NCBI RefSeq assembly: GCF_900102695.1
Contig: NZ_FMVW01000004.1
Location: forward strand, 1-64,000
Reading direction: 5' to 3'
Source of the DNA: Afifella marina DSM 2698
Lineage (GTDB): Bacteria; Pseudomonadota; Alphaproteobacteria; Rhizobiales; Afifellaceae
DNA: 64,000 nt
The position numbers and the translations under genes were made by a program. The stretch's first letter is position 1. The number at the start of each line of letters is the position of its first letter. The notes below the pieces were generated by a model. The model made no database searches and was not told the DNA's origin. It saw nothing but the letters and a program-made list of their open reading frames with translations. Shown in pieces: positions 54,844-60,216 of this stretch.

Positions 54844-57453
54844 ATGTCAATGCCGGGGGGCACGACCGACCCTGCGATCGTTTTGTCGAATGTCTGGAAG
54901 ATTTTTGGCGAACGCTCAGAAGAGGCCCTTGCGGCGATTGAAACAGAGCAGCTCGATAAAGCCGAGGTCCAATCTCGCTTCAACTGCATCGTCGGCGTCG
55001 CCGATGCGAGCATAGAGGTCGCGCGCGGCGAGATCTTCTGCGTGATGGGCTTATCCGGCTCAGGTAAGTCTACTCTCGTGCGCCACATCAACCGCCTTCT
55101 CGAACCGACGTCGGGTCGGATCGAGGTCGAGGGCCAGGATGTGATGGCCATGGGCGACGACGCGCTGCGCCGTCTGCGAGCCCAGACAATCGGCATGGTC
55201 TTCCAGAATTTCGGCCTCCTGCCGCACCGCACTGTCCGCGACAATGTCGGGCTGCCGCTCGAGGTCCAGAGCGTTCCCAAGCTCGATCGTTTCGATCAGG
55301 CCGAACGCTGCCTCGACCTCGTGGATCTTGGCGACTGGGGCGACAGTTTCGCCCATGAACTTTCAGGCGGCATGCAGCAGCGTGTCGGTCTCGCGCGCGC
55401 TCTTGCGGCAGATCCCGACATTCTTCTCATGGACGAGCCGTTTTCGGCGCTCGACCCTTTGATCCGCCGCCAATTGCAGGCAGAGTTCATGGCTCTGTCG
55501 AAAGAGCTGCACAAGACGACGGTCTTCATCACCCACGATCTCGACGAGGCGATCCGCATCGGCGATCGCATCGCCATCATGAAAGATGGCCGCATCGTGC
55601 AGACCGGGACGCCCGAGGAGATCGTGACCGATCCGGCCGACGATTATGTGGCCGATTTCGTCTCCGGCATCTCGCGGCTGAAGCTGGTCCATGCGGCGAA
55701 GATCATGCGGCCGTTGCCGACGCCCGGCGAGACGGGCATGGATTTAACCTCTGCTCCGCGCGCTCCGGTCGGTGCCGATCTCGATAGCCTTGTCGATCTC
55801 GTGCTCTCACAGAGAGAAGACATCGTTATCGTCGACGAAAGCGGCGCGGAGGTCGGCCTTGTCACGCAGACGGACCTCCTGCGCGGCGTCCAGGGCGGCA
55901 AGGAGCAACCCGTCGAGGTCGAAACCCAATCGGCCGCTGCCTTCGAGGTGGGGGCGGCGACCTCCCGCAAGGAACAGAACGCGCTCATCGCCGAGTTCGT
56001 CGGTCGCGGGGCTGGCCATTACATTCCCGCATTCCGCCGGATCGGGGAGGGGCGATGGGGCGTCATCAATCTCGGCGCCGTCGTTTTTGGTCCGATCTGG
56101 GCGGGTGCACGATCGCTCTGGTCGGTCTTTTGGGCCTTCGTCATCTTGGAATTGATCGGCCTTGTGCAAATCGGCCGCGGCTTTCTTGGCGATCTCGGCA
56201 GTGAGGCGGCGGCCCGTGCAGCCTCGCTTCTCGCGCGCGCCGATGCGCGGGCGGAGCGTGCGGCAGACGCGGCCGCTTCGGGTGCGGACAATGCCGCTCG
56301 CCTCGCTGCCAGCGCGGACAGGCTGCGTGATATTGCGGCCTCGGCTCAGACAGAAGCGGATGCTCTCTCGGCGCAGTCCACACAGGTCGCGTTGATCGGT
56401 CTCGGCATCTTTGTTGTCGTCAAACTCATCGAAGCTCTGACCGCAGATCGCGCGCTCGAATGGCGCTTCACCCATTGGCGTTCGGACCGCTCGATCCGCT
56501 CAGGCCTCTCTTGGGTGGGGGCGGCGATCGCGACCCTGCTGGTCGCCTTCATCTATCCCGTCACGATCTATCGGTTTTCGGCTGCCGAACCGCCGGCATG
56601 GCTGACGACTTTTCCCGCTGACAACGCGATCCGCGCGAGCGCAGCACGTTGGATCGATCACGCTTTCGATTGGCTCGCGATCGCGGGGGAGGGTTTCTTC
56701 GATTCCGTGACGGCGGTCGTGCGTGCGCTCCTCGATACCCTTGAACTGATGCTGGTGGCGACGCCCTGGCCTGTGGTCATGGTGGCGATTTGCGCCATCG
56801 CCTGGCTTCTCGCCGGCGCGCGGGTGGCGATCTTCACGGCTGTGGCGCTCGCCTATCTCGCACTCTTCGGTTTCTGGGAAAAATCCATGGCGACCGTGGC
56901 GCTGCTCGGAGCTGCGGCAGTGATCTGCGTCGTCATCGGCGTGCCGCTCGGCATTTGGTTTGCAAAGTCGGACCGTGCCTACGCGGCCGCGAGGCCGGTG
57001 CTCGATTTCATGCAGACGATGCCGGCCTTTGTCTATCTGATCCCGGTGATCGCATTCTTCGGAACCGGCAAACCTCCCGGCATTCTGGCGACACTCGTCT
57101 TCGGCATGCCGCCTGTCATCCGGCTAACCGCGCTCGGCATGAAAGGCGTGCCCTACGACGTCACCGAGGCGGCATCCGCTTTCGGCGCGACACGGACTTT
57201 CCGGCTTTGGAAGGTCGAGCTGCCGCTCGCCATGCCGTCCATCAAGACGGGCATCAACCAGACCATCCTGATGTGTCTGTCGATGGTGGTCATCGCCTCG
57301 CTCATTGGCGCGAAGGGTCTCGGCGAGGACGTTCTCGAAGCTCTGCAATATGCGGCCGAAGGGCAGGGCATGCTCGCGGGGCTCGCGATTCTTTTCTGTG
57401 CGATGGCGCTTGATCGGATCGTCGCCGGACGCGCGCCCGCAAAGTCGGCCTGA
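54844..57453 (+). CDS. Fused betaine/choline-type ABC transporter: ATPase plus permease
   Basis: An 869-residue single protein joining ProV- and ProW-like parts. Residues 1-280 are the ATPase: Walker A GLSGSGKST at 69-77, signature LSGGMQQR from 173, Walker B D197-E198. A CBS-like regulatory region follows (to about 385). Then comes an extra membrane segment resembling DUF2628 (about 391-450), an Ala/Asp/Arg-rich coiled coil (about 452-512), more helices, and the permease core (about 630-860). The core has the EAA loop EAASAFGATRTFRLWKVELP. ATPase and permease are normally separate proteins. The reading frame is open throughout. A ProX-like gene follows after 55 bases. Substrate (betaine, choline or proline) is inferred. 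Confidence 0.9.
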   Translation: MSMPGGTTDPAIVLSNVWKIFGERSEEALAAIETEQLDKAEVQSRFNCIVGVADASIEVARGEIFCVMGLSGSGKSTLVRHINRLLEPTSGRIEVEGQDVMAMGDDALRRLRAQTIGMVFQNFGLLPHRTVRDNVGLPLEVQSVPKLDRFDQAERCLDLVDLGDWGDSFAHELSGGMQQRVGLARALAADPDILLMDEPFSALDPLIRRQLQAEFMALSKELHKTTVFITHDLDEAIRIGDRIAIMKDGRIVQTGTPEEIVTDPADDYVADFVSGISRLKLVHAAKIMRPLPTPGETGMDLTSAPRAPVGADLDSLVDLVLSQREDIVIVDESGAEVGLVTQTDLLRGVQGGKEQPVEVETQSAAAFEVGAATSRKEQNALIAEFVGRGAGHYIPAFRRIGEGRWGVINLGAVVFGPIWAGARSLWSVFWAFVILELIGLVQIGRGFLGDLGSEAAARAASLLARADARAERAADAAASGADNAARLAASADRLRDIAASAQTEADALSAQSTQVALIGLGIFVVVKLIEALTADRALEWRFTHWRSDRSIRSGLSWVGAAIATLLVAFIYPVTIYRFSAAEPPAWLTTFPADNAIRASAARWIDHAFDWLAIAGEGFFDSVTAVVRALLDTLELMLVATPWPVVMVAICAIAWLLAGARVAIFTAVALAYLALFGFWEKSMATVALLGAAAVICVVIGVPLGIWFAKSDRAYAAARPVLDFMQTMPAFVYLIPVIAFFGTGKPPGILATLVFGMPPVIRLTALGMKGVPYDVTEAASAFGATRTFRLWKVELPLAMPSIKTGINQTILMCLSMVVIASLIGAKGLGEDVLEALQYAAEGQGMLAGLAILFCAMALDRIVAGRAPAKSA

Positions 57454-57508
57454 AGGCCTGCCGCGCATCGGCGCGGCCCCAAAACACCAACCTATGAGAG
57501 GACACAGT

Positions 57509-58456
57509 ATGAAGTCGCTTGTCTATTCCGCAGCTGCAGCAGCCTTGCTGATCGGCAGCAGTGCGCAGGCCGCCGATATCACCATCGGCGTGCCGAGCTG
57601 GCCGTCGGCAAAGGCCGGCGCCGCAGTCCTGAAGAACCTCGCGGAGCGGGAGTTCGGCGCCAATGTCACGCTGACGCCCGGCACGAACCCCGTCATCTTC
57701 GCGGCCATGGCGTCCGGCAAGGGCGATATGGATGTGCATCCGGAGGTCTGGCTGCCGAACATTCAGGGCATCGTCGACGAGTACAAGGATAACGTCGTCC
57801 TGGGCGATACCATGTTCGAGGGTGAGCAGGGCGACTGCGTGACGAAGGCGACGGCCGAAAAACTCGGCCTTTCGTCCATCACCGATCTTGCTGATCCAGA
57901 GATTGCAAAGCAGTTCGATTCAAACGGGGACGGCAAGGGCGAGTTCTGGGTGGGCGCGACCGGCTGGGCCTCCGCGAACACAGAGAAGGTCAAGATGCGG
58001 GGCTATGGGCTCGCCGATCTCTATGAGCCTGAGACGATCGATGAAGCTCTCGCCTATGCGCGTATCGGGGAGAAGGACAAGAAGGGCGAGCCTTACGTCT
58101 TCTACTGCTACACGCCACACCACATTTTCGCGCAGTACGACCTCGTGATGCTCGACGAGCCGGCGCATGACGATGCGAAATGGAACATGATCCAGCCGGA
58201 CGAAGATCCGCAATGGTACGAGAAATCGAGCGTCTCGACGGCCTGGAAGCCGGCCGAGATCCATCTCGCCTATTCGAAATCGCTCGAAGAGCGCGCTCCC
58301 GAGCTGATCACGCTGTTTGAGAACTACAAACCCACCAGCGACATGGTCGCCGACTGGACGTACCAGATCGCGGTGAAGGGGCGGGACGAGGACGAACTCG
58401 CTCAGGAGTGGATCGCCGACCATCCCGACGTCGTGGACAAATGGCTGGGCCTCTAA
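57509..58456 (+). CDS. Glycine betaine/choline-type substrate-binding protein (ProX-like)
   Basis: A 315-residue periplasmic protein with a signal peptide ending SSAQAA before DITIGVPSW. The OpuAC/ProX fold is indicated by GVPSWPSAKAGAAVLKNLAE, MDVHPEVWLPN and the mid-protein WVGATGWASAN; aromatic residues in these blocks usually form the cage for a quaternary ammonium group. The ATG at 57509 has GAGAGGAC upstream. It is the binding partner of the fused ATPase-permease 55 bases before it. Choline is a plausible ligand because the phosphatidylcholine synthase at 36 kb needs it, but betaine or proline fit equally well. Confidence 0.9.
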   Translation: MKSLVYSAAAAALLIGSSAQAADITIGVPSWPSAKAGAAVLKNLAEREFGANVTLTPGTNPVIFAAMASGKGDMDVHPEVWLPNIQGIVDEYKDNVVLGDTMFEGEQGDCVTKATAEKLGLSSITDLADPEIAKQFDSNGDGKGEFWVGATGWASANTEKVKMRGYGLADLYEPETIDEALAYARIGEKDKKGEPYVFYCYTPHHIFAQYDLVMLDEPAHDDAKWNMIQPDEDPQWYEKSSVSTAWKPAEIHLAYSKSLEERAPELITLFENYKPTSDMVADWTYQIAVKGRDEDELAQEWIADHPDVVDKWLGL

Positions 58457-58524: not shown

Positions 58525-60216
58525 TTACATGGTGGCGACGTATCGCTGCCTGACAGCATCTCGAACGCGCTGGCGGCTCTCCTGAGGAGAAAGCGCGCGA
58601 TCGAACGCAATGGCCTCGCATTCTCGCGCCAAGGCCTCGTCCTTGATGACGTCTCGGAACCACGCCGAATAATCGCCCGCCCGCAAATGGTGTTCCCAGG
58701 TTTCGTCGTCGACCTGATAAGCGAGCTCCAGGAAGTTCGACAGATTGCGGGCGGACAGGAAGACGCTGCCCGTCGGTCCACGAAAATAGAAACTGTGTTC
58801 CGGACCGACATCGCCGACCGCGTATTTTCCGGAATGGCGGTGATGGAGTTGCTGCGGTAGATCGGTTTTTATCCGCCATGGTGTGGGCTCTCCGACGAAC
58901 CAACCGAGCGCTTCGTTTTCGGCGCAGGCCCCGGGAGGGGAGACGTCGTGGCCTTGGATCGAGGCCGTGATCTCGATCACTTCGGGAGCGGACTTGCCGA
59001 AGGCGAGGATCGTTTCCGCCGTCGCCACCGCCTGGCGCGCGAGCGAACGCGGGCTGACCGTGATCATGACAATCGCGGGAATACTCTCCGGTAGCTTGTG
59101 CACATTCTCATGTCCCGCCGGCAGGATGTGATGGGCCTCGTCGATGATCACCCAATGCGGACGTCCCGTCCGATTGCGCAGCTGCGTGATCGACGGCAGC
59201 AAATCCGCAAAAAGCTGCCTGCGTTCGGCCAACGACAGAGCGACTGCGTTCACGACGACGTTGAGGTCGGCCGCATGCAAGAGGCGCAGCGCCTCTCCAG
59301 GCGAAGGCGGTTCTGCGCGACTGCCGATTTGGACGGCGTGGGCCAGGTCCTCGTAATCACCCTCAGGATCGATGACACAGAACTCCAGGCCTCTGTCCAC
59401 CATCCGTTCGGTCAAGAGCTTCGCGAAGCGTGACTTGCCGATGCCTGAATCTCCGCCGATCAGGACCCGCGTGTCGGGCTCGAGGTATATGTCATTGCCA
59501 TCCTCGTCGCTCCCAATTCTCAGGCCACGGCGGGCGAGCGGCAGGATATGTGCATCTTCGCGAAGGAGTGCGTCGATGAGCTCAACCACCCCTGCGCCGT
59601 GGTCGCGCATCAGGCGAATATCTGCCGCGTTCCGAAGGGCTGGCAAGGCATTTGCCACCGCGGCCGAACAGCCGCAGGCGCCAAGAAAGGCGTGATCGTT
59701 TTCCGCATCGCCCACCGCGACCACATTCGGCGCTGAGATATCGAGATGTCGGAGGGCGGCTTTGAGCCCCGAAGCTTTGTTCACGCCGGGCGGCAACACC
59801 ATCACCGCACCTTTGTTGAAGGTGATTTGGAGTTCCAGGCCCAGCTCGTGGATGGCCGCAAGAACCTCTCGTTCGTGGGGCTCCCAGGTGGCGAGGACCG
59901 CGCGGCCGATCGAAAGCGGCCCAACCTTCCGCTCGAGCAGCCTCTCGATGAGAGCGTGCGGGGGCGGCGCTGCGAGCGTTGTCTCCGTTCCTTCTCCGGG
60001 ATCGTAGAGAACCGCGCCGTTTTCGGCGACGATCAGATCGAAGAGTGCGAATTCGGCAAACGCGGCTTTGAGCGGTTGGAGCTCGCGCCCGGTCACCAGG
60101 ATGATGCGGCGCCCGCTCTCCTTGAGCCGCCGCAGCGCCTCGCACGTCTCGGGAGCGACGAAACCGTCATGGGCGAGCGTACCGTCATAATCGGTCGCAA
60201 GGGCGAGGAAGTGCAT
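58525..60216 (-). CDS. HAD phosphatase fused to a P-loop ATPase
   Basis: A 563-residue two-domain protein. Residues 1-225 are a HAD-IIB (Cof-type) phosphatase: DYDGT at 9-13 with nucleophile D9, VTGRE at 41-45, K147 in the GVNKASGL block, and GDAENDHAFL at 169-178. Residues 245-450 are an ATPase of the HerA/DUF87 kind: Walker A GDSGIGKS (255-262), VIDPEGDYED, Walker B VIIDE (356-360). The C-terminal 100 residues form another conserved-looking module with WEHHLRAGDYSAWFRD. The pairing of a sugar-phosphate-type phosphatase with a motor-like ATPase is unusual, and the function is unknown. It is a single-gene reverse unit. Confidence 0.85.
   Translation of the reverse strand: MHFLALATDYDGTLAHDGFVAPETCEALRRLKESGRRIILVTGRELQPLKAAFAEFALFDLIVAENGAVLYDPGEGTETTLAAPPPHALIERLLERKVGPLSIGRAVLATWEPHEREVLAAIHELGLELQITFNKGAVMVLPPGVNKASGLKAALRHLDISAPNVVAVGDAENDHAFLGACGCSAAVANALPALRNAADIRLMRDHGAGVVELIDALLREDAHILPLARRGLRIGSDEDGNDIYLEPDTRVLIGGDSGIGKSRFAKLLTERMVDRGLEFCVIDPEGDYEDLAHAVQIGSRAEPPSPGEALRLLHAADLNVVVNAVALSLAERRQLFADLLPSITQLRNRTGRPHWVIIDEAHHILPAGHENVHKLPESIPAIVMITVSPRSLARQAVATAETILAFGKSAPEVIEITASIQGHDVSPPGACAENEALGWFVGEPTPWRIKTDLPQQLHHRHSGKYAVGDVGPEHSFYFRGPTGSVFLSARNLSNFLELAYQVDDETWEHHLRAGDYSAWFRDVIKDEALARECEAIAFDRALSPQESRQRVRDAVRQRYVATM

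Follow-up and report, generated by a model that had tools for sequence, protein, structure and literature searches.

The window, the whole 64,000-nucleotide stretch of Afifella marina DSM 2698 DNA analysed here, belongs to a 3.96 Mb draft genome of 24 contigs. On its minus strand, at 58525..60216, we identified a single open frame, intact from ATG to stop and encoding 563 amino acids (open-frame listing), that joins a HAD-IIB phosphatase, a HerA-type ATPase and an OrfY-like module in one polypeptide. The phosphatase domain covers residues 1-220 (59557..60216, minus strand) and has a PH1421-type cap, as indicated by Pfam, the NCBIfam HAD-IIB model and the 1wr8 fold. It is followed by a HerA-type RecA/ASCE core at about residues 231-454 (58855..59526, minus strand), identified by a DUF87 match and the fold of HerA (4d2i), and by a C-terminal module at residues 455-563 (58528..58854, minus strand) that resembles OrfY and DUF5752 and takes the 4cso fold. 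The AlphaFold2 model of the whole protein has a mean pLDDT of 90.4 and a pTM of 0.79. An initial annotation made from the DNA letters had described a phosphatase joined to a HerA/DUF87-type ATPase and a conserved C-terminal module, and Pfam, the AlphaFold2 model, the fold matches and the conservation of the C-terminal part all support that description.

Full-length relatives of the protein share 58-47% identity with it, and the three-domain architecture is genuine and occurs in many bacteria. Comparison with two orthologues from the same genus gave dN/dS values of 0.106 and 0.126 for the whole gene. By domain, the values were 0.056 and 0.076 for the phosphatase, 0.110 and 0.164 for the ATPase and 0.171 and 0.170 for the C-terminal module; all three domains are kept under purifying selection. 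Convergent with the fusion gene, and context rather than part of it, lies an ABC importer (54844..58456, plus strand; Pfam ABC_tran, BPD_transp_1 and OpuAC). It consists of an 869-residue polypeptide (54844-57453) that combines the ATPase and permease of a glycine-betaine-type importer, and of an OpuAC binding protein (57494-58456).

The phosphatase domain matches Pfam Hydrolase_3 (1.1e-25, 91.3 bits against a cut-off of 20.9) and passes the NCBIfam HAD-IIB model TIGR01484 (90.2 bits against 41.8). All four HAD motifs are kept, with D9, D11, T42, K147, D170, N173 and D174 invariant in 31 of 31 aligned relatives. Motif I, D9-Y10-D11, with the nucleophile and acid/base aspartates, lies at 60184..60192 and motif IV, GDAEND (residues 169-174), at 59695..59712, both on the minus strand. 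With these residues and the Walker A and B motifs described below invariant in 31 of 31 relatives, the view that both catalytic centres look intact holds. Residues 1-224 of the model superpose on PH1421 (1wr8) with a Z-score of 27.2 over 222 residues at 30% identity, and this full-length superposition places a C2-type cap between motifs II and III. Lower fold matches include YbiV, sucrose-phosphatase, mannosyl-3-phosphoglycerate phosphatase and trehalose-6-phosphate phosphatase.

The domain had been labelled Cof-type. The broader assignment to HAD-IIB stands above cut-off, but the Cof model TIGR00099 reaches only 87.4 bits against a cut-off of 137, so that the label was too narrow. The protein also falls under the cut-offs of the NCBIfam models for sucrose-phosphate phosphatase (SPP) and archaeal phosphoglycolate phosphatase. 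Because all three models are under cut-off, we assign the domain by sequence profile to HAD-IIB, outside the three named subfamilies. Membership of the OtsB family was likewise rejected (PF02358, 17.4 bits against 27), although OtsB (6upb) has the HAD-IIB fold in common with it (Z 20.2). The fold and the full set of HAD motifs are common to PH1421 and the HAD-IIB metabolite phosphatases, such as sucrose-phosphatase, mannosyl-3-phosphoglycerate phosphatase and YbiV. PH1421-type phosphatases stand alone, whereas the protein described here carries 340 further residues after the HAD domain. HAD-IIB enzymes are frequently promiscuous.

HerA/FtsK ATPases are movers of DNA or protein. The central part of the fusion protein matches the DUF87/HerA domain PF01935 above cut-off (3.6e-07, 30.9 bits against 23.2), and the DUF87 match is found at E<=0.01 in 24 of 24 core sequences (best 4.3e-10). 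Residues 231-469 of the model superpose on Sulfolobus solfataricus HerA (4d2i) with a Z-score of 22.2 over 225 residues (rmsd 3.0), and the core scores 21.2 against HerA-NurA (9x1m) and 21.1 against an anti-phage HerA complex (8xav). Walker A, GDSGIGKS (residues 255-262, 59431..59454), contains K261, invariant in 31 of 31 relatives; the Walker B pair D359-E360 (59137..59142) is equally invariant, as is a DPEGDY motif (residues 283-288, 59353..59370) in 31 aligned relatives, all three on the minus strand. The RecA core with Walker A, a D176-like aspartate and Walker B is thus common to HerA (4d2i, 9x1m) and the fusion. D283 lies 22 residues after K261, a spacing equal to that given for K154 and D176 in the part of the HerA study concerned with these residues (PMC4351679). 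The initial annotation had read the segment VIDPEGDY as typical of proteins that move DNA or protein. The fold that this implied is borne out; the step to DNA movement is not, as D283, together with Walker A and B, points to ATP binding.

Two features of HerA are missing in the fusion family. The N-terminal HAS barrel is absent because the HAD domain occupies its place: in the model and its fold matches, residues 1-224 fold as a HAD domain, with the core beginning at about residue 231. The second feature concerns the trans arginine finger. In the portion of the study of S. islandicus HerA that treats the arginine finger, R381 is described as essential, 25 residues past E356, and the substitution R381K as abolishing ATPase activity (PMC4351679). 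Residue 388 of the fusion protein (59053..59055, minus strand), 28 residues past E360, aligns with the arginine of the TQR motif of STIV B204 and likely corresponds to R381, an equivalence that draws on one weak STIV B204 alignment (E 0.016) and on the spacing from Walker B. That alignment came from a search of PDB sequences with an ATPase profile stripped of its P-loop; results with the full profile were dominated by ABC-type P-loops. Position 388 is serine here and histidine in most relatives, and arginine is missing in 30 of 31. The sole relative with arginine (L009 8001-9689) reads TYRP where TVHP is usual, which makes it a natural experiment on the loss of the arginine finger. R332, R460, H461, K464 and Y465, the last four of them in the C-terminal module, are invariant in the alignment of relatives and could be substitutes or ligand contacts. 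The neighbour families listed, 25 of 154, include no gene for a NurA partner.

The C-terminal module is well conserved (mean column identity 69% in 31 sequences) and folds confidently when residues 455-563 are modelled alone (pLDDT 90.0, pTM 0.83). A Foldseek search returned Thermoproteus tenax OrfY (4cso) in its top three rows with weak E-values of 0.58-0.69. Structural alignment to OrfY gave a Z-score of 11.3 at an rmsd of 2.1 over 95 of 109 residues, with the next best chain at 5.1, scores that helical domains may reach by chance. The likeness is also independently backed, because sequence profiles agree with the fold match: a profile search of the PDB placed OrfY first (E 0.019), and DUF5752 matches reach E<=1 in 25 of 31 modules (best 4.8e-05), the module of the A. 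marina protein itself scoring 15 bits with PF19027, under the cut-off of 23. On these model and profile matches we assign the module to the OrfY fold, as a DUF5752-like domain newly seen here. OrfY differs in being 216 amino acids long with two weak profile matches, compared with about 109 amino acids for the module. The PDB entry labels OrfY a transcription factor, and our literature search found no paper on T. tenax OrfY or on DUF5752. A link between OrfY and trehalose is not claimed, since the T. tenax trehalose operon, in the passages that set it out, is msc-gt-tpsp, with OrfY not in it (PMC3634074). The DUF5752 profile had no match in a search of the A. marina genome.

The species collection has 436 candidate stretches, and 362 of them encode relatives of the fusion; the best 80 of the 362 were kept, and each of these matches at least residues 4-558. 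Occurrence is patchy. An even sample of the phylum has relatives in 11 of 398 genomes and 4 of 213 genera; the order sample has them in 28 of 297 genomes and 9 of 122 genera, as 20 full-length fusions and 8 with the HAD part only. In Afifella itself the gene is present in 5 of 5 genomes listed, compared with none of the six genomes listed from the family's other genera in the order sample. Full-length fusions outside the order are found in cyanobacteria, betaproteobacteria and one actinobacterium, and the cyanobacterial sample has relatives in 6 of 244 genomes, 2 of them full-length. Fifteen plasmid records (from Sinorhizobium, Agrobacterium, Aminobacter, Synechococcus, Nonomuraea, Caballeronia and Paraburkholderia) carry relatives, 11 of which cover at least 80% of the fusion. 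By comparison, 50,697 phage records yielded four weak HAD matches, none over 80% of the fusion. The patchy distribution across phyla suggests horizontal spread.

HAD-only relatives occur in several genomes, which establishes that the phosphatase can exist without the ATPase. Those of Rhizobiales and cyanobacteria show 53-61% identity, and further ones are more distant (41-43%). A tree built from 48 HAD domains needs five changes to explain the HAD-only forms, of which the well-supported branches force at least two. The C-terminal module was never found alone in the order sample, where it lies inside the fusion in 16 of 16 genomes with a match; the same is true of 11 of 11 plasmid records and of two of three cyanobacterial matches. 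The third is a short, stop-interrupted remnant (L205, G413:C41:160595-160807), the sole copy seen outside a full fusion. The ATPase query found the 11 fusion records among plasmids and one short, distant DUF87 match. Since the HAD domain occurs alone and the C-terminal module, bar this remnant, only with the fusion, the ATPase and the C-terminal module look like an accessory pair.

The initial annotation had proposed a gene-neighbourhood survey of the fusion; this revealed no constant neighbour and a leaning to universal stress proteins and family-4 glycosyltransferases. There is no conserved operon: in an all-against-all clustering of neighbours, only the gene itself and its antisense shadows cross lineages. 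Within two positions of the gene at 40 loci, the 138 genes counted (of 155 listed, 17 being left out; 25 of 154 families listed) include seven universal stress proteins (Usp), five family-4 glycosyltransferases (GT4), four CBS proteins and three PfkB kinases. In a control of 138 genes, taken from 18 regions chosen arbitrarily in carriers or related genomes, each family stayed below 2. One-sided Fisher tests, which took 1 per family in the control and ignored the kinship of loci, gave 0.033 for Usp and 0.0008 for the four families pooled, these four having been picked after looking; GT4, CBS and PfkB were not individually significant. The neighbours thus lean towards stress (Usp) and sugar (GT4) genes, and response-regulator genes are also among them.

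The annotated plasmid regions mostly point the same way. The fusion gene is surrounded by Usp, CBS, phosphoketolase and P-type ATPase genes in Agrobacterium, by GT4, amylo-alpha-1,6-glucosidase and trehalose-6-phosphate synthase genes in Aminobacter, and by Dps, BON, hemerythrin and rubredoxin genes in Synechococcus. In Caballeronia two GT4 genes lie immediately upstream. The Sinorhizobium region is unlike the others, with ABC transporter and cold-shock genes. Past the right end of the window, about 7 kb from the A. marina fusion (L162 16568-19356), two genes resemble by eye HsdM and HsdS of a type I restriction-modification system.

A lead on the substrate comes from two Mesorhizobium genomes (G194 and G197), in which a HAD-only gene adjoins GT4, a GDE/MGH1-like glycosidase and GT20 trehalose-6-phosphate synthase (TPS) (L160 9310-15319 and L159 9005-15473). 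Neither genome has a match to the trehalose-phosphatase family PF02358. Within a set of 40 genomes, GT20 is present in 32 and PF02358 in 31, G194 being the sole GT20 genome without PF02358. GT20 accompanies the fusion in 20 of 20 fusion-bearing genomes, compared with 12 of 20 without it (p 0.003, kinship ignored). In the HAD tree the two HAD-only genes group with the fused Aminobacter gene (support 100/94), itself part of a cluster of this type. The neighbourhood makes the HAD-only gene of G194 and G197 a candidate alternative trehalose-6-phosphate phosphatase, on an argument that comprises two related genomes. A further HAD-only gene (L140) comes after one of the ROK family in an apparent sugar-transport region. 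A control region (L177) likewise has a GT4-GDE pair.

The idea that OtsB is generally replaced was rejected: of 20 fusion genomes, 19 keep OtsB, as do 12 of 24 genomes or records in a second set, and only G194 and G197 fit well. G194 carries a full fusion elsewhere in its genome too. In one further genome (G403), a single cluster contains TPS and the fused gene with OtsB between them; because this cluster has its own OtsB, the fused enzyme need not be a trehalose-6-phosphate phosphatase. Most fusion-bearing genomes have OtsB as well, and a role shared with OtsB is possible in the two Mesorhizobium genomes. Among the literature matches listed, nothing relevant on the replacement of trehalose-6-phosphate phosphatases was found.

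Given these analyses, we propose that the protein acts in stress or solute metabolism as a sugar-phosphate phosphatase, in which a core derived from HerA serves as ATP switch or scaffold and the OrfY-like module as a sensor or binding part. We give this tentative reading a probability of about 40%. The HAD-IIB domain would remove phosphate from a small phosphorylated sugar or glycoside, with trehalose-6-phosphate or a similar disaccharide phosphate as the leading candidate. The HerA-type core is predicted to bind ATP and to work as a switch, possibly as a ring scaffold, and it may couple ATP, or a ligand or partner read by the OrfY-like module, to the output of the phosphatase. The role would lie in stress or compatible-solute/storage-sugar metabolism and not in DNA end processing. 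We infer the substrate class from fold, motifs and neighbourhood; a regulatory role for ATP, in place of one in powering movement, and any ring of subunits are inferred as well. Of the two ideas in the initial annotation, that of an ATP-regulated phosphatase is, as a prediction, the better one. We also speculate, with considerable doubt, that a HerA-type core without HAS barrel and arginine finger was recruited into metabolism between a sugar phosphatase and an OrfY-type sensor as an ATP-gated ring or switch that controls, under stress, how trehalose-6-phosphate or a related solute is dephosphorylated, and that the un-fused HAD form replaced OtsB in some Mesorhizobium.

The neighbourhood could be accommodated in another way, with the HAD domain as a broad house-cleaning phosphatase linked to stress and the ATPase and C-terminal part binding and relocating another protein or a DNA regulator. 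The fold match to OrfY (Z 11.3) and the transcription-factor label of its PDB entry would fit this arrangement, as would the promiscuity of HAD-IIB enzymes and the Usp, CBS and response-regulator neighbours. Against this, our literature search found no function for OrfY, and we consider house-cleaning with relocation rather unlikely.

The pairing of a HAD domain and a P-loop on a single chain might instead denote a bifunctional kinase/phosphatase that sets the level of one metabolite: the P-loop part would act as a kinase for small molecules, or as an ATPase supplying the HAD domain with its product. The absence of the HerA arginine is compatible with this, and many weak matches to P-loop kinases were obtained, including APS kinase at E 1.6e-05, with APS_kinase matched in 12 of 24 members. 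However, most of these matches span the P-loop region only, both the Walker B DE pair and the strand bearing DPEGDY belong to the HerA/FtsK type, and the core can be superposed on HerA over all its 225 residues. A bifunctional enzyme of this sort is improbable.

The initial annotation had also suggested a nucleic-acid end processor. Here the HerA core would be a DNA-translocating ring and the HAD domain would remove terminal phosphates, in the manner of HerA-NurA or of polynucleotide kinase/phosphatase (PNKP). PNKP itself pairs a HAD domain with a P-loop; it is absent from the 50 fold matches listed, which does not count against the comparison, and the core matches HerA. The superpositions on HerA and HerA-NurA, the DUF87 match above cut-off, the invariance of Walker A, Walker B and DPEGDY, and a PADLOC match to mad8 (1e-10, residues 234-411) all speak for such a machine. 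Yet the HAD domain stands in place of the HAS barrel, the arginine expected at the R381 position is missing in 30 of 31 relatives, and both the HAD-IIB cap and the best fold matches are those of metabolite phosphatases. Within the neighbour listing (25 of 154 families) the tilt is to stress and sugar functions, and HAD-only relatives lie in a sugar-transport region or a GT4-GDE-TPS cluster; both observations argue in the same direction. The missing barrel, the lost arginine and the stress and sugar neighbours weaken the earlier suggestion, and we regard DNA-end processing by the fusion protein as unlikely, a slim prospect at most.

A role in defence, against phage or otherwise, is highly improbable; in it the HerA-like core would act as in DUF4297-HerA (8xav, an anti-phage complex; PMC11291478) or MADS, and the HAD domain would be the effector. 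The HerA-type core is shared with DUF4297-HerA (fold matches at Z about 21) and with mad8, and occurrence is patchy, but the gene is present in all five same-genus genomes seen, the neighbour listing (25 of 154 families) shows no obvious defence system, phage records hold no full-length match, and, where DUF4297-HerA has a separate nuclease effector, the fusion has a joined, metabolite-type phosphatase with stand-alone homologues.

The domains of this protein are known, and their combination is apparently undescribed as far as the searched literature and annotation go; our search found no description of a HAD-HerA/DUF87 fusion, within a coverage that is thin for subscription papers and is not proof of absence. 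The relatives are annotated merely as 'HAD-IIB family hydrolase' or the like, and the three-domain architecture of a widespread family has been hidden behind this one-domain label. If the proposed sugar or glycoside phosphatase with an ATP switch is correct, a HerA core serving a metabolic phosphatase would represent a change of trade for the HerA/FtsK superfamily. The fusion also gives DUF5752/OrfY a testable context, and the HAD-only form provides a candidate trehalose-6-phosphate phosphatase for genomes with TPS and without OtsB. One HAD-only relative (L118/L119, G565:C57:171940-172671) came out of the search split in two, its first row containing one TAA. Gene calling nevertheless yields a 242-residue frame (L161 9444-10172), and this relative may simply carry an insertion.
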